NCBI RefSeq assembly: GCF_000376425.1
Contig: NZ_AQWL01000004.1
Coordinates: forward strand, 78,223 to 142,222
Length of the DNA: 64,000 nucleotides
Reading direction: 5' to 3'
Origin: Thiobacillus denitrificans DSM 12475
GTDB taxonomy: Bacteria; Pseudomonadota; Gammaproteobacteria; Burkholderiales; Thiobacillaceae
The notes under the pieces were generated by a model. The model was not told where the DNA came from and ran no database searches. It worked only from the letters and a program-made list of their open reading frames with translations. Below, in pieces: positions 54,885 to 63,623 of this stretch. Numbering within the stretch: position 1 is the first letter of the stretch; each line of letters begins with the position of its first letter. The position numbers were made by a program, and so were the translations under genes.

Positions 54885-56552
54885 ATGAATATTTCCGTCA
54901 GCGAACTGATCGTCCGGTATCTGGAACGCCTGGGCATCGACCACATTTTCGGCATGCCGGGCGCGCACGTGCTGCCGATCTACGACAGCCTGCATGATTC
55001 GGGCGTGAAGAGCGTGCTGGTAAAGCACGAGCAGGGCGCGGCCTTCATGGCCGGCGGCTACACGCGGGTGTCGCAGCGGCCCTCCGCCTGCATCGCCACC
55101 GCGGGGCCGGGAGCGACCAATCTCATTACCGGCATCGCCAATGCCTACGCCGAGCGGCTGCCGGTGCTGGTGATCACCGGCGAGACCTCGACCTACATCT
55201 TCGGCCGTGGCGGCCTGCAGGAAAGCTCCGGCGAAGGCGGCACCATCGACCAGGGCGCGCTGTTCGCCAGCATCACCCGCTACCACAGGCTCGTCGAGCG
55301 CACTGATTATCTCGGCCAGGTGCTGAACCAGGCCACCCGGGCGCTGCTCGGTCGTGAACCGGGGCCGGTGCTGCTTTCGATCCCGTACAACGTGCAGAAG
55401 GAACAGGTCGACGCCAGCGTGCTCGAGCAGATCCATTTCCCCTGCCAGCCCACGATTCGCCACACGACGCCGACGAGCGCGCTCGCCGAACTGATCCGGG
55501 CTGCGCATGCGCCGGTGATCGTCGCCGGTTACGGCTGCATCCAGGCGGGTGCGCGCGAAACCGTCGCCGCCTTTTCCGAACGCTTCAACGTCCCGGTCAC
55601 CACCAGCCTCAAGGCCAAGGGCGTGGTGGCCGAAGGCACGCCGCTGTCGCTGGGTTGTCTCGGGGTGACGTCCAACGGCAATGCCTACCGCTACCTCGTC
55701 GACCACGCCGACCTGCTGGTGTTTCTCGGCGCCGGCTTCAACGAACGCACCAGCTACCTGTGGGACGCGAAGCTGCTGGCCGGCAAGAAGATCGCCCAGG
55801 TAGACCGCGACGCCGCCCAGCTCGGCCGCGTGTTCCAGCCCGACGTGGCGATCTGCGGCGACGTCCGCGCGGTGATGGAAGAACTGCTCGCCATGCTCGA
55901 AGCGGACGCCATGCCGCCCAAGGCCCGCGACCTGCTGGACGGCCACCGCGCGGCCACCCCGCCACCCGCAAGCGGCGACGCTGCGCCGGCGGAAGCGGAA
56001 CCCTTCCACCTGATCCAGGCATTTTTCAGCGGGCTCGCCCGGCACTTCCCGCACAACGCGCTGGTGTTCGACGACAACATCGTCTTCGCGCAGAGCTACT
56101 TCGACGTCTCCGACCGCAACCACTACTTCCCGAATTCAGGCATCTCGTCGCTGGGACACGCAATCCCGGCCGCCATCGGCGCGCGCTGCTTTGCCCCTGA
56201 CAGCCCCACCTTCGCCATCCTCGGCGATGGCGGCTTCCAGATGTGCTGCATGGAAATGATGACCGCGGTGAACTACGGCATCCCGCTCAACGTGGTGGTG
56301 ATCAACAACGGCACGCTCTCGCTCATCCGCAAGAACCAGTTCCAGCTCTATGGCGAACGCTACATCGACTGCGACTTTGCGAACCCCGACTTCGGCCTGC
56401 TCGCGCAATCCTTCGGCGTGCAACACTACCGCATCGAGACCGGGGCCGACCTCGATGCCCTGTTTGCCCACGCCGACCTCACCGGCGCGATCAACCTTAT
56501 CGAAGTCCTGCTCGACAAACACGCCTTCCCCCGCTACCTGTCGGCTCGCTAG
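54885..56552 (+). CDS. ThDP-dependent enzyme, acetolactate synthase-like
   Basis: The 555-aa protein has the three ThDP-enzyme domains. The catalytic Glu is in LVKHEQGAAFMAGGYTRVS. The ThDP-binding motif runs from GDGGFQMCCMEMMTAV to VVINNGTL. The FAD-type middle domain is present. It resembles the large subunit of acetolactate synthase, but no small regulatory subunit gene is adjacent, so it may be a catabolic or related decarboxylase or ligase. It is transcribed toward the sigma factor gene. Confidence 0.82.
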   Translation: MNISVSELIVRYLERLGIDHIFGMPGAHVLPIYDSLHDSGVKSVLVKHEQGAAFMAGGYTRVSQRPSACIATAGPGATNLITGIANAYAERLPVLVITGETSTYIFGRGGLQESSGEGGTIDQGALFASITRYHRLVERTDYLGQVLNQATRALLGREPGPVLLSIPYNVQKEQVDASVLEQIHFPCQPTIRHTTPTSALAELIRAAHAPVIVAGYGCIQAGARETVAAFSERFNVPVTTSLKAKGVVAEGTPLSLGCLGVTSNGNAYRYLVDHADLLVFLGAGFNERTSYLWDAKLLAGKKIAQVDRDAAQLGRVFQPDVAICGDVRAVMEELLAMLEADAMPPKARDLLDGHRAATPPPASGDAAPAEAEPFHLIQAFFSGLARHFPHNALVFDDNIVFAQSYFDVSDRNHYFPNSGISSLGHAIPAAIGARCFAPDSPTFAILGDGGFQMCCMEMMTAVNYGIPLNVVVINNGTLSLIRKNQFQLYGERYIDCDFANPDFGLLAQSFGVQHYRIETGADLDALFAHADLTGAINLIEVLLDKHAFPRYLSAR

Positions 56553-56571
56553 CCGTTGGGTTGAAATAATT

Positions 56572-56597
56572 GGAACTTTTCTCTTCCTGCTTCGTTT
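56572..56597 (+). promoter_or_regulatory. ECF-type promoter upstream of the sigma factor gene
   Basis: GGAAC at 56572-56576 and CGTTT at 56593-56597 are separated by 16 bases, the usual ECF -35/-10 layout. The same motif and spacing occur at 58593-58618. It suggests autoregulation of the ECF sigma gene at 56719. Confidence 0.75.
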
Positions 56598-56605
56598 GAC
56601 GCAGT

Positions 56606-56722
56606 ATGGAAGAAGACCGTCAGCCAAAAATCCCGGACTTGCCTGACAGGATCAAGAACCAACCAGAGCAGTGGGATGGCCGGGCCCAGGAACGGGACGT
56701 CGATGACCAGAGTGCCGGATGA
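56606..56722 (+). CDS. Possible 38-aa leader peptide coupled to the sigma gene
   Basis: A short frame begins at ATG 56606, just after the expected transcription start of the ECF promoter, and ends with TGA overlapping the sigma ATG by ATGA. The peptide is charged and Asp/Gln/Arg-rich. It would have almost no leader for ribosome binding, so translation is uncertain. It could couple translation of the sigma gene, whose own ribosome site is weak. Confidence 0.35.
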   Translation: MEEDRQPKIPDLPDRIKNQPEQWDGRAQERDVDDQSAG

Positions 56723-57291
56723 ACAAGAGTGAATCATGCGGCAGCTGGCAGCAGTTGCAGGATCACGAGTGCATCGCCCTGTTCCAGCGCGGCGAGCAGG
56801 AAGCATTTGCGGAGCTGGTGCGACGCCACCAGAATCGCATTTTCCGTTTCCTCCTGCGCATGACGGGCTGCCGTGAAGAGGCGCTTGAACTGACTCAGGA
56901 GACAATGTTCAAAGCCTTTCGCGCACTCCCCGGCTGGCGGCCTGACGCCGCTTTTGGTACGTGGCTGTTTCGTATCGCCAGCAATGCGGCCACGGACAGA
57001 CTGCGGCGCAAGAAGGTGGTGAAGTACGAGCCGATCGAGGCCCACATGGAGTTTCCCGACCCTGCGGCCGGGCCGGAAGAGGAACTGCAATCGGCCCAGC
57101 GCGTCCGCATTCTCGAAGCGGCGCTGCAGCGGCTTCAGGATGACTACCGGCAGGTTCTCTTGTTGCGGGAAGTCGAGGAAATGTCGTACGCCGAAATAGG
57201 CGATGTGCTGGGGTTACGCGAGGGGACGGTCAAGTCCCGCATCGCACGTGCGAGACAGGCTCTGCTGGAGGTCTGCAAGGGCAGGATCTAA
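56719..57291 (+). CDS. ECF RNA polymerase sigma factor (RpoE-like)
   Basis: This 190-aa sigma factor has region 2 (AFAELVRRHQNRIFRFLLRM, then EALELTQETMFKAFRALPGW) and region 4 (LQDDYRQVLLLREVEEMSYA with a helix-turn-helix in EIGDVLGLREGTVKSRIAR). It would direct polymerase to ECF promoters in response to envelope or metal stress. Anti-sigma and periplasmic sensor genes follow in the same direction. Its promoter matches one before the porin-sox operon. Confidence 0.93.
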   Translation: MNKSESCGSWQQLQDHECIALFQRGEQEAFAELVRRHQNRIFRFLLRMTGCREEALELTQETMFKAFRALPGWRPDAAFGTWLFRIASNAATDRLRRKKVVKYEPIEAHMEFPDPAAGPEEELQSAQRVRILEAALQRLQDDYRQVLLLREVEEMSYAEIGDVLGLREGTVKSRIARARQALLEVCKGRI

Positions 57292-57333
57292 GGCCATCAT
57301 TTGGAGATTTCGGCAAATCTGAGAGCAACGATC

Positions 57334-57777
57334 ATGAGCAAGCACTGTAAAAGAAGTGAGAATCTGTCCGCCTACCTCGACGATGAGCTGGACGAGAAGA
57401 CCCGCCTCAAATTCGAGAGGCACCTGGAAGACTGTTTCACCTGCAAGGAAATGCTGCGCGATTTGCGCTGTCTCCAGGGGTGTTTCCAGACCTTGCCACA
57501 GCCGGAAGTGGGATTCGACCTGGCACCTGTGGTGTTGGCGGAGCTGGGACGGCGTAGCGCCCGCCCGACAAGCGTGCTGCGCTTCAACTGGTGGCGGCTG
57601 TTGCCGGTTTCATTCGCGGCCGTGGCCACGGTTTCGCTGGGGGTGTTCCTGGGGAGCCTCCTCACCGGCAGGCTCGACGCCGAGGTGACTGCCCCGACGC
57701 TGGCCATGTTCGATCCCATCCCGCCAGGCGGCATATGTATCGGATTCGCGGGATGCTATCCGAAGGAAAGAATCTGA
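57334..57777 (+). CDS. Anti-sigma factor with zinc finger (zf-HC2)
   Basis: The 147-aa protein starts with an anti-sigma zinc-finger (SAYLDDELDEKTRLKFERHL, then EDCFTCKEML; pattern H-x3-C-x2-C), followed by a linker, one membrane segment (about residues 92-112) and a short periplasmic tail. It should hold the sigma factor at the membrane until signalled. The stop overlaps the next start by one base (TGATG). Confidence 0.9.
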   Translation: MSKHCKRSENLSAYLDDELDEKTRLKFERHLEDCFTCKEMLRDLRCLQGCFQTLPQPEVGFDLAPVVLAELGRRSARPTSVLRFNWWRLLPVSFAAVATVSLGVFLGSLLTGRLDAEVTAPTLAMFDPIPPGGICIGFAGCYPKERI

Positions 57778-58247
57778 TGAAACGTTCCTGGCTTCATACA
57801 TTGCTAGCATTTTCCCTGCTTCTCAACGTGGGGGTGCTGGGCGCGGTGGGCTACCAGGCCTGGCAAAATGGCGGGGGGCCCGATCTGCATGCCGACGCCA
57901 AGCATGACCACCTGGCGGAGTACCTCAACCTCAGCGAGGAACAGCGGCGGCAGTGGCAGGAAAAAGAAGGAAAGTTTCTGCGGGAAATGGGGGCCGATTG
58001 GGAGGAGGTTCGCATTCACCGCGAACGCATGATCCGGCAGATTTTCTCGCAGCAGCCCGACCTTGCAGCGATCGAAGCCGATCGCGCAGCCATCTCGCGC
58101 CTCCAGGAAAAGCAGCAGCGTCATGTCATCGAGCAGCTGATGGAAGAGCAGCGCATGCTCGATGCCACTCAGCGGGAAGCTCTGGCCGAACTCCTGATCC
58201 AGCAAAAACCCGCCGGCTCGCTCGAGGAGCGGCTGCACGGCGATTGA
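57777..58247 (+). CDS. Periplasmic heavy-metal-sensor-like protein (CnrX/CpxP/Spy type)
   Basis: The 156-aa protein has an N-terminal membrane anchor (about residues 8-28). The rest is an all-helical periplasmic domain rich in Glu, Gln and Arg with LNLSEEQRRQWQEKEGKFLR, typical of the LTXXQ/CnrX group. H38, H43, H45, H116 and M122 could bind metal, but not in the exact CnrX arrangement. With sigma and anti-sigma it forms a CnrYXH-like module sensing metal or envelope stress. Confidence 0.78.
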   Translation: MKRSWLHTLLAFSLLLNVGVLGAVGYQAWQNGGGPDLHADAKHDHLAEYLNLSEEQRRQWQEKEGKFLREMGADWEEVRIHRERMIRQIFSQQPDLAAIEADRAAISRLQEKQQRHVIEQLMEEQRMLDATQREALAELLIQQKPAGSLEERLHGD

Positions 58248-58268
58248 TGCGGCAGAACCGGTATCGAC

Positions 58269-58302
58269 ATGGCAGGATGGCGCACGTGCGCGATCCTGCC
58301 AT
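58269..58302. repeat. 34-bp near-perfect palindrome downstream of the sigma module
   Basis: Outer arms ATGGCAGGAT and ATCCTGCCAT enclose GCGCAC/GTGCGC with one mismatched base on each side. No T run follows. It may terminate the sigma operon, stabilise its 3' end or bind a protein. Confidence 0.7.
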
Positions 58303-58592
58303 CGAGCCATTGCCGATCGAAAACACCGTCCGCAATTTCCGGCTTCGGCCATGCCGACCGGCCGGCACATCTCAGCCTTATTTCAACGTGTAGCGACATA
58401 CGGCACGGCATAGCAGCGCCGGCATTATTGGAGCCGCTTTCGCCATACCCTTGGGACAGTCTGGCGGCCGACGGATCATTCCGAGCGGCCTCCCATGCCC
58501 GTGCCCTCTTCCCGCCTGAACGCCGTCGTCACCGATGCGGCGGCGTTTCTGCCTTCACCGCTTCCCCAACCTCCGGGGTCGTAGAAAAAACC

Positions 58593-58618
58593 GGAACATT
58601 TCTCTCGCCCTCTCGTTT
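58593..58618 (+). promoter_or_regulatory. ECF-type promoter of the porin-sox operon
   Basis: GGAAC (58593-58597), 16 bases, then CGTTT (58614-58618), identical in core and spacing to the promoter before the ECF sigma gene. The flanks also match in the TTTCTCT stretch after the -35. Confidence 0.75.
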
Positions 58619-58706
58619 AAGCCAGTGAAGAACGCGATGTCTTCAAAGCAGGCAGCCCGCATCAATGTTTGTTCACCCAATAAAGATAAACGAGGAGGAG
58701 AACGGA

Positions 58707-60158
58707 ATGCGCATCAAGAGGAAATTTATCGCCGCGGCCTGGACGGCAGTCGGGCTTTCATCCGGCGGGGCAAGCCAGGCCGCCAACTGGGTGATGGCGT
58801 TCGGGACCGAACCCCTCGCCAGCACCCACCGCTTGCTCGGTGCGGTGCAGCTCACCTACGAAAACAACTTCGACTGCAGGGACACGCGTGGCTTTGTGGG
58901 CCCCGCAGCAGCCAACAACGGATTAGTGGTAAACAACTGCCGGGTTGGCCCGGAGCTGAGAAATGACGAGTCCGGCCTTTATCTGCAGAACCTGATGCTG
59001 GGGGTCCGGGGAAATCTGATTCCGGGCCGCATCAATTACATGCTCACCGCCAACGCCGGCGAGAACGTCGCCAACTACCAGCCGTACAACACCGAGCGCA
59101 AGCACATCGCGAGCCTGACCGACGCCAGTCTCTCCTTCCACTACATCCCCGGCATGCGGGTACGAACCGGCCTGCTGCGCAAGCCCGGCCCCGAGGAGCT
59201 GTATCAGGGGCTGGAGGCAACCGACTACATCTTCCTCACCGACTTCGTGCAGCGGGTGCAGATCGAGCGCTTCATCAATGGCAACGCCAAGGCTACCGCT
59301 CCGATCGCAGGCCAGGGCTATGCCGGCAATGTATCCCGGCACGGCTACGACGCGGACGCCGGGCGCGACTGGGGACTGCAGTTTTTCGATGCCTTCAGCC
59401 GCGACAAATGGACCCACACCTACTCGGTCATGTTCGGCAACGGCAACGGCATCCATCGGGGCGACAACAACAGCGACAAGGACCTCAACCTCTATCTCTC
59501 CTCCGAGTACGACCTGCCCGGCGGCAAGGGGCCGCTCAAGCACGGGGTGAAGCTGTACGGCTACCACCACAAGGGCGTACGCAACTTCGTCATCGATGCC
59601 AACGGCACCGAGAGCCAGGATTTCGACCGGATCCGCTACGGCATCGGCATGAAGGCACTCGGCTACCTGTTCGGCGAGGATAACGGCAAGCACCGGGTGG
59701 AATTCGAGTTGATGTTCGCCGACGGGATGATCAACTACACCCCCACCGCCAACACGGCAGACGCGCCCTACGGCGGGCTGGTCCAGTTCGCGGCGGAGCG
59801 CGGCAACAAGGCCAAGGGCATTACGCTCGACTACGGCTACTACCTCAACAAGAACTGGCAGTTCGACATCCGCTATTCGCGTAACGATCTGCTGTACGAA
59901 ACGGCCAACGCCAACCCGGCCGTCCAATACTGGACCAGCGGCGACGAGCGCATCCTGAAGTACACGACCCTGGGCGTGAACTACCACTTCACGCCCAAGA
60001 CCCGGCTCACCTTCAACTACGAGTTCCGCAACGTCACCGCCCCGAACCCGGCGCGCACGACCGCTGGCGTCATCAGCAATCCCAGCACCACCAACGCGAA
60101 CGTGGTCTCCGGCTCGGTGGGCGACCGCTTCGGGCTCAGGCTGACGCACAGCTTCTAG
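58707..60158 (+). CDS. Outer-membrane porin (OprO/OprP-like)
   Basis: The 483-aa protein has a signal peptide ending near GASQAAN and a series of amphipathic beta strands ending RFGLRLTHSF with a terminal Phe. Only weak family identity to phosphate-selective-type porins can be claimed. The strong AGGAGG site supports ATG 58707 over an upstream ATG at 58665. It may let sulfur anions such as thiosulfate cross the outer membrane; that is inferred from the sox genes that follow. Confidence 0.8.
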   Translation: MRIKRKFIAAAWTAVGLSSGGASQAANWVMAFGTEPLASTHRLLGAVQLTYENNFDCRDTRGFVGPAAANNGLVVNNCRVGPELRNDESGLYLQNLMLGVRGNLIPGRINYMLTANAGENVANYQPYNTERKHIASLTDASLSFHYIPGMRVRTGLLRKPGPEELYQGLEATDYIFLTDFVQRVQIERFINGNAKATAPIAGQGYAGNVSRHGYDADAGRDWGLQFFDAFSRDKWTHTYSVMFGNGNGIHRGDNNSDKDLNLYLSSEYDLPGGKGPLKHGVKLYGYHHKGVRNFVIDANGTESQDFDRIRYGIGMKALGYLFGEDNGKHRVEFELMFADGMINYTPTANTADAPYGGLVQFAAERGNKAKGITLDYGYYLNKNWQFDIRYSRNDLLYETANANPAVQYWTSGDERILKYTTLGVNYHFTPKTRLTFNYEFRNVTAPNPARTTAGVISNPSTTNANVVSGSVGDRFGLRLTHSF

Positions 60159-60200
60159 GCACGCGCCGGGCGACGGAAAAACACCAAAGGAGAAATATTC

Positions 60201-60695
60201 ATGAGACCGATTTTCAGCAAATGGCGGAACCTTGTGCCGCTGCTACTGGCCGCCGCGCTCGCCGGCTGCGTCGCCCAGCCTGGCAAGCCGGCGCAGCCGG
60301 CGGCCGGAGGCGGCAAGGGAACGGATTTCTCGGAGTGGCCCTGCCTGAGCTACACCCTGGCCTGCGGCCGGACCCCGAACCGCAAGCCGGTTAAACAGGC
60401 GCTCGCCGGGCCGCTCGGCGGCGATCCGGCGCGCGGCAAGGTGTTTGCCAACGAACGCAGCAAGGGCAATTGCGTCGCCTGCCACCTGATCCAGGGCGCG
60501 GAGCAGCCCGGTTCAAAAGGCCCGGACCTGAGCGCCTACGGCACATGGGACAGAAGCGACGCGGAAACCTACGCCCTGGTTTACGACATGCGCTGGCGCA
60601 ACCCGGACACCGTCATGCCGACGTTCGGGGTCAACCAAATCCTGAACGACCAGGAACTGCGCGACGTCGTCGCCTTCCTGCAGTCATCGAAGTAA
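60201..60695 (+). CDS. soxX: Sulfur oxidation c-type cytochrome SoxX
   Basis: SoxX pairs with SoxA to attach thiosulfate to the SoxY Cys in the periplasm. The 164-aa protein has one heme motif C91-V-A-C-H95. A methionine in DTVMPTFGV is the sixth ligand. The N-terminus ends ALAGC, a lipobox, so this SoxX may be membrane-anchored, unlike the usual soluble form. Two extra Cys (WPCLSYTLAC) follow. AAAGGAG precedes the start. Confidence 0.92.
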   Translation: MRPIFSKWRNLVPLLLAAALAGCVAQPGKPAQPAAGGGKGTDFSEWPCLSYTLACGRTPNRKPVKQALAGPLGGDPARGKVFANERSKGNCVACHLIQGAEQPGSKGPDLSAYGTWDRSDAETYALVYDMRWRNPDTVMPTFGVNQILNDQELRDVVAFLQSSK

Positions 60696-60707: not shown

Positions 60708-61640
60708 ATGGCTGGAAACCATTCTTTTTCCCTGCACGCGCTTGCCCTGATATCGCTGTTCGTCATGGCGGCCCCGGGGCCGGCTGCCGGCGCCGGAGCC
60801 GTATATCGTGAAGCCTATCCGCGCGCGGCAATCGACCCGTCCCGCGGCATCGGCGGTGCCGGCGATGCCGACTTCGGCGCCACCCTGCAGTACTGGCAGG
60901 ACGAAAAATCGCTCGAGCAGCACAAGCAGTGGATCGGCGACCCGGAGCATGAGTGGAAGCTGAACTGGAAATTCCTCGACTTCGACCGCACCGACGACAT
61001 GCACCCGGGATACCTGGCGCTGGAAGCGGGAGAAAAACTGTTCAAGCTGTGGGCCAAGCGCGAGCCGGCATTCCGCACCTGCCTCGGCGAGGGCAAAACC
61101 GACTTGAAGGGGCTGGCGGCGACCTATCCCAAGTACGATCCCAAGCTCAAGCGGATCATGACCGTCGAGGGCCGGGTGGAGCACTGCGCGCAGACCGCCC
61201 TGTGGGAGACCTTCAAGCAGGGGTCGCCGGCAAACAATCAAATCTCCCTTTACTTCAAGTCCCTGTCAGCCCGGGAACCGATCAGAGTGGACACCGGCTC
61301 CGCCGAGATCATGCAGTCCTATCGGCGCGGCGAGAAACTGTTCCATGCCAAGGTGGGACAGTTCAACTTCTCCTGCGCCTCCTGCCACACCTCGTCGGGC
61401 CTGCTGGGCCAGCGCTTCCGCGGCCAGGTACCGACCACCCCGTTCGGGGACGCGGCCCACTTCCCCACCTACCGCCTGGCCCTGGGCGATATCGAGTCGC
61501 TGCAGCAGCGCTTCATGCGCTGCAACCTGCAGGCCCGCACCAAGGCACTGCCGCCCGGCGACCCGGCTTACACCGACCTGGAGGTGTTTTACACCGTGCT
61601 TTCCAACGACTACCCGGTTTCCGTGCCATCGGCGCGCTAA
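60708..61640 (+). CDS. soxA: Sulfur oxidation c-type cytochrome SoxA
   Basis: The 310-aa SoxA has a signal peptide and a single heme motif C223-A-S-C-H227. The active-site Cys that carries a persulfide heme ligand is C272 in RFMRCNLQ. The position of the first heme of diheme SoxA is replaced by C125 and C160, fitting the monoheme type with a structural disulfide. It lies 12 bases after soxX. Confidence 0.93.
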   Translation: MAGNHSFSLHALALISLFVMAAPGPAAGAGAVYREAYPRAAIDPSRGIGGAGDADFGATLQYWQDEKSLEQHKQWIGDPEHEWKLNWKFLDFDRTDDMHPGYLALEAGEKLFKLWAKREPAFRTCLGEGKTDLKGLAATYPKYDPKLKRIMTVEGRVEHCAQTALWETFKQGSPANNQISLYFKSLSAREPIRVDTGSAEIMQSYRRGEKLFHAKVGQFNFSCASCHTSSGLLGQRFRGQVPTTPFGDAAHFPTYRLALGDIESLQQRFMRCNLQARTKALPPGDPAYTDLEVFYTVLSNDYPVSVPSAR

Positions 61641-61671: not shown

Positions 61672-62151
61672 ATGAATGAGCTGAATGAACTACGCAGGGC
61701 GTTGCTGAAGGGCGGATGCGCCGCCGGCCTCGTCGCCTTCGCCGCATCCGCCGGGCTGCTGGTGCCAGGCCGCGCCCTCGCCGCGGAATGGAACAAGAGC
61801 GCCTTCGAGGCCAAAAACGTCGCCGACGTCCTCAAGGGCCTGGGTGCATCGGGGGTCGCCGACAGCAAGGACATCCTGATCAAGGCTTCCGACGTTGCCG
61901 AAAACGGCGCCGTGATACCCGTCGAGGTGACCAGCCAGATCGCCGGCACCCAGTCCATCACCATCCTGGCGGACAAGAACCCTCTGCCGCTTCTGGCGAT
62001 GTTCGAGTTCGTCGACGGGGCGCAGGGCTACGTCTCCACCCGCATCAAGATGGGCCAAACCTCCAACGTGCGCGTGGTGGTCAAGGCCGGAGGCAAGTAC
62101 TACAGCGCGGCCAAGGAAATCAAGGTCACCATCGGCGGCTGCGGCGGCTGA
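61672..62151 (+). CDS. soxY: Sulfur carrier protein SoxY
   Basis: SoxY carries sulfur intermediates on the Cys of its C-terminal GGCGG, present here at the very end (residues 155-159 of 159). The N-terminus has twin arginines (R8-R9, RRALLKGG) and a hydrophobic stretch, fitting Tat export. SoxZ, its partner, follows. GGAGAACGAC precedes the ATG. Confidence 0.95.
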   Translation: MNELNELRRALLKGGCAAGLVAFAASAGLLVPGRALAAEWNKSAFEAKNVADVLKGLGASGVADSKDILIKASDVAENGAVIPVEVTSQIAGTQSITILADKNPLPLLAMFEFVDGAQGYVSTRIKMGQTSNVRVVVKAGGKYYSAAKEIKVTIGGCGG

Positions 62152-62185: not shown

Positions 62186-62500
62186 ATGGCAGAACCGATG
62201 AAGATTCGCACGCAGCTCTCCGGCGACCTGGTGGCAATCAAGGTCCTGATCGGCCACGTCATGGAGACCGGCCAGCGCAAAGACCCGAGAACCGGGCAGG
62301 TGATCCCCGCCCATTTCATCAAGCAGCTCAGCGTCGGCCTGAACGGCAAGACGGTCATTGCCGCCCAATGGGGCGGGGCCATTTCCAAAGACCCCTTCCT
62401 GGGACTGAAGGTGAAGGGCGCCAAGGCCGGCGACAAGATCACCGTGCACTGGGAAGACAGCAAGGGCGAAAAAAACAGCGCCGAGGCCACGGTTGGCTGA
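62186..62500 (+). CDS. soxZ: Thiosulfate oxidation carrier complex protein SoxZ
   Basis: SoxZ is the 104-aa partner of SoxY and has no signal peptide, so it would be carried out with SoxY. The MEPMKIRTQLSGD-like start (MAEPMKIRTQLSGD) and IPAHFIKQLSV are typical. It starts 34 bases after soxY. No soxB or soxCD gene follows, so the full pathway must use genes elsewhere. Confidence 0.94.
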   Translation: MAEPMKIRTQLSGDLVAIKVLIGHVMETGQRKDPRTGQVIPAHFIKQLSVGLNGKTVIAAQWGGAISKDPFLGLKVKGAKAGDKITVHWEDSKGEKNSAEATVG

Positions 62501-62606: not shown

Positions 62607-63113
62607 ATGAAACCACATTTCAAGGCAGCGTGGCTCGGCCTGGCGGCAAGCCTGGTCATGGCAGGCGCAGCAGCCGACGTGGGCAAGGACGAACGCCTCA
62701 AGCTGATACTCGAACCGCACGAGCGCCATTTGGTGCTGCTCGAAATGCGTAACTTCCTCCACGTTTTGCAGACCATGACCGACTCGCTGACCCGGGAAGA
62801 CATGAAAACGCTGGCGGATGCGGCGCGAACCATGGGCAGCGGGGCCGCCAATGAAATCCCGCCCGAGACCGTGGCAAAATTGCCGGATACCTTCAAGATG
62901 TTGGCCGGTACCGTGCACACCACGTTCGACATGATTGCGCTGGATGCGGAAAGCCTGGGCGACCCCAGGCACACCCTGAAACAGATGGGCACCCTGCTGC
63001 AGACATGCAATGCCTGCCACGGCATCTACCAGGTTTCGACCGAGCCCTTTCCACCTCTGAAGCGGGGAGGTTTGACTTCCGGGAAAACGACTGCCGTGAA
63101 GCCGGCCCGCTAA
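62607..63113 (+). CDS. Cytochrome c'-like protein
   Basis: The 168-aa protein has a signal peptide (cleavage near AGAAA) and an alpha-helical domain with one C-terminal heme motif, CNACH at residues 134-138, the position seen in cytochromes c' of the four-helix-bundle class. Such proteins bind NO or transfer electrons; here it may take electrons from Sox or protect against NO. GGAG precedes ATG 62607. It follows soxZ by 106 bases. Confidence 0.75.
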   Translation: MKPHFKAAWLGLAASLVMAGAAADVGKDERLKLILEPHERHLVLLEMRNFLHVLQTMTDSLTREDMKTLADAARTMGSGAANEIPPETVAKLPDTFKMLAGTVHTTFDMIALDAESLGDPRHTLKQMGTLLQTCNACHGIYQVSTEPFPPLKRGGLTSGKTTAVKPAR

Positions 63114-63137: not shown

Positions 63138-63623
63138 ATGAAACCCCTTCTTCTTTCGCTGTCCGCCGCCATGCTGGCGCTCCCCCTGATGGTGCAGGCT
63201 GCCGGTCCGGCCCACCACCACGATCACGGGGCCGGCGCTCCGCAATCAATCCAGCTCAATGCCGGCAAGAAATGGGCCACCGACGATGCGTTGCGCCAGG
63301 GCATGGAAGCGATCCGGGCACTTGTGGAAAACGCGCTGCCGGCCGCGCATGCCGGCAAGCTCACGGCTGCCGGGTACGACGCCCTGGCGAACGACATCGA
63401 TTCGCGCATCGCTTATATCGTGGGCAACTGCAAGCTCGACCCCAAGGCCGATGCGCAGCTCCACATCGTCATCGGCGAGCTGGCCGGCGGTGTCGACACG
63501 ATAAAGGGCAAGCAGCCCGGCCAGGCACGCGCCATGGGGGTGGTCAATGTTTCCCAGACCCTGAATACCTACGGCAAATACTTCAATCACCCGGGCTGGC
63601 GGGCGATCAAGCTGCCTCACTAG
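63138..63623 (+). CDS. His-rich periplasmic protein (DnrO-like)
   Basis: The 161-aa protein has a signal peptide (cleavage near VQAAG) and a His cluster (AHHHDHG) at the mature N-terminus that could bind metal. The rest is helical, with LRQGMEAIRALVENALPAAH, then YIVGNCKLDPKADAQLHIVI. Resemblance to DnrO-type proteins is tentative. It lies 25 bases after the cytochrome c' gene and probably shares its transcript. Confidence 0.6.
   Translation: MKPLLLSLSAAMLALPLMVQAAGPAHHHDHGAGAPQSIQLNAGKKWATDDALRQGMEAIRALVENALPAAHAGKLTAAGYDALANDIDSRIAYIVGNCKLDPKADAQLHIVIGELAGGVDTIKGKQPGQARAMGVVNVSQTLNTYGKYFNHPGWRAIKLPH

Follow-up and report, generated by a model that had tools for sequence, protein, structure and literature searches.

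Paired predicted ECF-type promoters link a neighboring sigma factor to an accessory porin-sox operon in Thiobacillus denitrificans

Regulation of sox genes is known to involve SoxR, a protein of the ArsR type. In Acidithiobacillus caldus, a sigma-54 two-component system called TspS/TspR controls sox (PMC12194929). It resembles the locus described below in that a dedicated regulator is located beside a sox cluster, but this regulator is not an ECF sigma factor. A closer comparison is provided by Arcobacter butzleri, in which ECF sigma-2 (AB1044) activates and ECF sigma-7 (AB2301) represses sox genes, effects that rest on RT-PCR and an activity assay (PMC3445524). The original prediction for our locus stated that no described ECF control of sox genes was known, and this statement must be corrected given the A. 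butzleri findings. In both organisms, ECF sigma/anti-sigma pairs are implicated in the expression of a sox operon. However, the locus numbers place the A. butzleri sox cluster (AB0563-0570) far from AB1044, whereas the operon examined here is adjacent to its sigma gene and linked to a porin. Furthermore, nap, dctPQM, and other genes also respond in A. butzleri, and the text searched (PMC3445524) gives no defined promoter and contains neither “consensus” nor “promoter motif,” whereas a defined motif is conserved across relatives of the locus described here.

ECF26 sigma factors provide another precedent. RpoE4 of Sinorhizobium meliloti and SigE of Starkeya novella control the sulfite dehydrogenases SorT/SorAB, with sulfite as the signal and with GGAAT/CGTC promoters (PMC3511301, PMC6527743). 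As in our locus, a sigma/anti-sigma pair is encoded directly upstream of periplasmic sulfur-oxidation genes, and in S. meliloti one promoter type serves both the sigma gene and its target. The two arrangements are set apart by promoter (GGAAT/CGTC in PMC6527743 versus GGAAC/CGTT here), by target (sorT/sorA rather than soxXAYZ), and by a CnrX-like third gene that is present here but is not mentioned in the accessible text of either report. As quoted in PMC3511301, Staron et al. tentatively placed the ECF26 group in thiosulfate oxidation, and a betaproteobacterial group of such sigma factors is reported to lack the GGAAT/CGTC consensus (PMC6527743). The CnrYXH and NccYXH systems of Cupriavidus metallidurans likewise combine an ECF sigma factor, a membrane anti-sigma factor, and a periplasmic sensor of similar fold, although their targets differ and CnrY is a class II anti-sigma factor (PMC7406223) rather than a zinc-finger (zf-HC2) protein. 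Within the search terms tried, we found no dedicated adjacent ECF promoter for soxXAYZ in the PMC papers searched.

The window, meaning the whole stretch of 64,000 nucleotides that was analyzed, derives from a genome of 3.61 Mb in 38 contigs (G000), and all features of the window described below are on its plus strand. The first of two putative operons begins with an ECF-type promoter (P1, 56572..56597), which is followed in close order by three genes. The sigma gene (56719..57291) matches Sigma70_r2 (2.1e-19) and Sigma70_r4_2 (3.5e-18), with no region 3 listed, and exceeds the TIGR02937 cutoff. With regions 2 and 4 only, its product is an ECF (group 4) sigma-70 factor. The second gene (57334..57777) encodes a zf-HC2 protein with an HxxxCxxC zinc-finger signature and one hydrophobic segment (residues 92-110), and thus the sigma factor has a co-encoded zinc-finger anti-sigma factor with a predicted transmembrane segment. 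Nine anti-sigma sequences drawn from the 14 ortholog loci described below were aligned, and H30, C34, and C37 are invariant, as are C135 and C141 in the C-terminal region that follows the hydrophobic segment. This cysteine pair is part of a conserved FDPIPPGGxC...CY-like motif (57709-57759 in the window). The third gene (57777..58247) encodes a PF13801 (Metal_resist, 4.9e-23) protein with an N-terminal hydrophobic segment and is probably a periplasmic sensor or partner. Homologs of the sigma factor encoded on plasmids were found only below 60% identity.

The second operon begins with a promoter of the same type (P2, 58593..58618) and a gene for an outer-membrane porin (58707..60158), whose PF07396 match is just over the cutoff. 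Next are soxX (60201..60695; TIGR04485), soxA (60708..61640; TIGR04484), soxY (61672..62151; TIGR04488), whose product has a GGCGG C-terminus, and soxZ (62186..62500; TIGR04490), and all four proteins score above the curated NCBIfam cutoffs. The profile matches agree with the ECF sigma, porin, and soxXAYZ assignments made originally from sequence inspection. The operon also carries a gene for a c-type cytochrome (62607..63113), whose weak match to cytochrome c' is below the cutoff, and ends with a gene for a His-rich, exported four-helix protein (63138..63623). The four-helix model has a mean pLDDT of 82.6 and gave no PDB match at E ≤ 0.001. This protein may be “DnrO-like,” and a literature search on that name yielded nothing relevant. 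Plasmids offered nothing informative on the setting of its homologs, and no porin homologs were found on plasmids at 1e-20.

No soxB gene is present in this operon. The only soxB match in the genome (G000:C4:266753) is part of the main soxXYZAB cluster on contig C4 (L086 2432-6487), and the operon in the window is therefore an accessory soxXAYZ set lacking soxB. A further soxXA-like pair is located on contig C2 (L087). Neither of these two other sox loci is preceded by the promoter motif. The proposal that the sigma factor directly drives thiosulfate oxidation and the porin must be divided accordingly: direct control of the sox genes is well supported by the comparisons below, but “drives thiosulfate oxidation” is an overstatement because the operon is accessory, lacks soxB, and the main cluster lacks the motif.

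The two promoter sequences, GGAAC-N16-CGTTT in both cases, were found on the plus strand with the coordinates and equal spacing originally proposed. They are the only two matches in the window, where 0.08 are expected, and none of 100 shuffled sequences reached two. Across the entire genome, however, the bare core occurs at five places and the pattern read backwards occurs at eight. A bare core match alone is thus weak evidence given this background frequency, and the weight of the observation must come from comparison with other genomes. The longer string GGAACNTTTCTCTN7TCGTTT is restricted to P1 and P2 in G000, and among 250 genomes of the order it was found in only one, which is the source of the window. 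This restriction reflects divergence of the spacers in relatives, and therefore the core motif was used for comparison. The shared TTTCTCT stretch noted originally is indeed present at both sites in the window, but relatives carry, for example, TTTCTTC, TTTCCTT, TTTCTCC, or TTTCTTT at this position. We therefore rejected TTTCTCT as a functional element.

We also considered whether the genome carries a larger regulon. The relaxed pattern GGAACW-N15-CGTT occurs at 15 places in G000, compared to 19 for the backwards control. Eleven of these places overlap open reading frames of at least 782 bases, one (L109) overlaps an open reading frame of 482 bases, and another (L105) overlaps none and has the look of an inverted repeat. 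The remaining two are P1 and P2, which overlap only open reading frames of 296-431 bases. A larger regulon is not supported by these matches, which include no further clear copy in a promoter position, with L109 as a possible exception.

For the comparison, we assembled 14 loci with sigma orthologs: nine from the 11 family genomes matched, three from a sample of 349 genomes of the order (G055, G179, and G430), and two from a sample of 369 genomes of the class (G469 and G616). Scoring in the order and class samples was limited to about nine first-look candidates per genome. Two genes with sigma identities of 41-42% (G332 and G285) were excluded as RpoE. An exact GGAAC-N16-CGTT sequence is present in the 260 bp preceding the sigma start at 14 of 14 loci and in the 260 bp preceding the target gene start at 14 of 14 loci, where some start codons that define these regions are estimates and where the loci, being related by descent, do not amount to 14 independent tests. 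By comparison, spacers of 10-15 and 17-22 nucleotides gave five hits altogether in these regions, the antisense strand gave none, and dinucleotide-shuffled versions of the sigma upstream regions scored positive six times in 5,600. When the sites are aligned, conservation is lower outside the -35 and -10 elements; the invariant columns follow from how sites were selected, whereas the count of 14 of 14 is not a product of that selection. Sites upstream of the sigma gene read GGAACTTT at 12 loci and GGAACATT at the other two (G055 and G616). Those upstream of the target read GGAACATT at eight loci, and GGAACATC (G317 and G430), GGAACAAA (G055 and G616), and GGAACTTT (G469 and G179) at two loci each. 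By virtue of a common motif at the sigma gene and its target, the window sigma would be classed as the head of an autoregulated ECF regulon.

Comparison thus establishes that these predicted promoters are paired, exactly spaced, and linked to the window sigma factor. The best explanation, to which we assign a probability of roughly 0.8, is a self-reinforcing ECF switch built on paired GGAAC-N16-CGTT promoters. The membrane-spanning zinc-finger anti-sigma factor would hold the sigma factor, together with the CnrX/NccX-like periplasmic partner from the same operon, and we infer that these two proteins act jointly. A periplasmic signal, presumably some sulfur, redox, or metal condition, would cause release of the sigma factor. 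The freed sigma factor would then read P1, yielding more sigma factor, anti-sigma factor, and partner, and would read P2, yielding the porin-soxXAYZ-cytochrome-His-rich gene transcript as a second RNA. That the window sigma factor reads both sites, rather than another sigma factor, is likewise an interpretation of the comparative data. Any SoxB acting with the accessory proteins would need to be supplied by the main cluster, which is located elsewhere. If true, a dedicated adjacent ECF switch would place lithotrophic sulfur oxidation under the influence of an envelope signal, and its exact motif makes the accessory sox-porin switch directly testable.

A competing assignment is that RpoE (sigma-E) reads both promoters and that the adjacency of the ECF sigma gene is incidental. 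RpoE-type promoters carry a -35 element of GGAACTT, and cross-recognition of the GGAAC sites by RpoE is possible because of this resemblance. The genome indeed encodes an RpoE protein (G000:C1:110732), which scores 303.2 bits against TIGR02939. The window sigma factor scores 113.7 bits with this model, for which the cutoff is 236.15, and so is not an RpoE equivalog. We examined five RpoE genes called by TIGR02939 scores over the cutoff (G000, G167, G231, G332, and G285), and none has GGAAC-N16-CGTT upstream. Their likely own promoters, GAACTT-N16-TCACA in G000 and GAACTT-N16-TCTCA in G167, also lack CGTT. Moreover, RpoE-level matches (orthologs of the window sigma included) occur in 299 of the 349 order genomes, yet GGAAC-N15..17-CGTT is not found before the sox genes at any of 10 control loci that have SoxA proteins of 38-48% identity and no neighboring sigma hit (L062, L065, and L067-L074). 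The motif matches in L057 and L071 are located elsewhere and do not precede sox genes. Given these results, we judge control by RpoE to be improbable. A further observation counts against the neighboring sigma factor as the regulator: control locus L062 comes from G302, a genome whose ortholog sigma gene sits on another contig, and thus G302 has the sigma factor plus another soxXA locus that lacks the motif.

It is also conceivable that only P1 is functional. P2 would then be a copy that has decayed or arisen by recent duplication, and the porin-sox genes would be served by a housekeeping promoter or by read-through transcription out of the sigma operon. P1 and P2 are identical at 19 of 26 positions and are separated by about 2 kb, as a recent copy might be, and an additional dyad at P2 suggests that other control exists. 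However, P2 retains GGAACATTT and CGTTTA across six family genomes while much of its flank drifts, and G469, which belongs to another order, keeps both sites. A consensus scan of 56500-60250 gave no sigma-70-like promoter, although the scan is a weak one because shuffled sequences average only 0.8. Read-through is countered by a strong hairpin 3' of the sigma operon (58270..58301, folding z -4.98), which has no T run, is absent from the terminator scan list, and may separate the two transcripts. A nonfunctional P2 therefore seems highly improbable to us, and we favor P2 as the second site read by the neighboring sigma factor.

The dyad (TGAAGA-N8-TCTTCA, 58626..58645) is directly 3' of P2. When the P2 regions of the six family genomes are aligned, the conserved blocks are the -35 element, the -10 element, the dyad in the form TGAAGR-N8-TCTTC, and the ribosome-binding region. 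The dyad is present in 16 of 113 loci examined, all of which are stretches of these six genomes. An RNA hairpin at this position was considered and rejected, since the stem folds no better than shuffled sequences in G000, G360, and G167 (z -0.2 to 0.3); in G344, a different and longer stem forms. For this reason a DNA site is likelier, and the dyad could be an operator for a second regulator.

The nature of the signal is a separate matter from the promoter logic. For the PF13801 protein, the best PDB sequence-profile and fold matches are to NccX and CnrX, with E values of only 0.01-0.1, and the Foldseek match (probability 1.00, E ~0.05) is based on a model with a mean pLDDT of 71.4. The protein is therefore predicted to have a CnrX-like fold. 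This similarity invites the view that the system is a metal-stress switch of the CnrX/NccX type, in which the sox-porin genes are induced as part of an envelope or metal response and not in response to sulfur. Such a role is compatible with the paired-promoter switch, and in 7 of the 14 loci the same sigma chassis is coupled to genes other than sox. No metal-efflux gene is found among the profile matches for either operon. Nickel binding by CnrX involves His42, His46, E63, H119, and M123. In the alignment of the third-gene proteins with CnrX, which is weak (E 0.02), only the E63 equivalent is an invariant Glu, while H119 and M123 correspond to invariant Q120 and E124, and the positions of His42 and His46 are variable. 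Because the CnrX ligands look mostly unconserved, a CnrX-type metal site in this protein is doubtful, and we regard a metal-stress role as possible but not likely.

At high identity, the sigma factor and the accessory operon occur together within the family. Sigma proteins of at least 77% identity are present in 6 of 118 family genomes (G000, G306, G305, G167, G360, and G344; next best 56%), and SoxA proteins of the window type (at least 79% identity) are present in exactly the same six (next best 47%). The three close relatives that have been named are Thiobacillus MAGs. The two genes share a contig in five of the six genomes; the exception is G167, where the contig ends inside soxA and the SoxA match contains one TAA. 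In all six, the target of P2 is the porin-soxXAYZ-cytochrome operon plus the His-rich gene (across two contigs in G167). G469 has a porin-soxXAYZ-cytochrome target in the same sigma-porin-sox arrangement, where tblastn segments show 46-64% identity; the search of its family and order covered one genome each.

Targets in the remaining loci are different. A porin-sox target is found in 7 of the 14 loci, and in the other seven its place is taken by the His-rich gene (six loci: G311, G317, G302, G055, G179, and G616) or by a DUF6448 gene (PF20046; G430, L078 4265-4891). The His-rich gene is present in 41 of the 349 order genomes, four of which (G000, G167, G055, and G179) also have an ortholog-level sigma match. 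In the sigma tree, one switch between sox and His-rich targets is enough. On this basis we considered that the link to sox arose once, and set the idea aside, as support is modest (71/88) and the G469 branch is long. The exchange may have run in either direction, with sox genes inserted before the His-rich gene or the His-rich gene added later.

These target differences suggest a broader, more speculative version of the ECF switch that we offer tentatively. The sigma factor, the anti-sigma factor with its zinc finger and periplasmic cysteine pair, a metal-blind partner of the CnrX fold, and the GGAAC-N16-CGTT promoter could form a portable chassis whose target has been exchanged among His-rich, DUF6448, and porin-soxXAYZ genes. 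Where it is coupled to sox, this chassis might use the cysteine pair of the anti-sigma factor to sense a sulfur or redox species in the periplasm, with direct induction of an accessory thiosulfate-oxidizing operon as the outcome. A chassis that stays constant while its targets are swapped would be a compact example of regulon rewiring. The His-rich target need not be adjacent to the sigma operon, as seen in G302, where multihaem cytochrome and EB_dh-domain genes are located between the sigma operon and the distant His-rich gene (L061 2890-6690).
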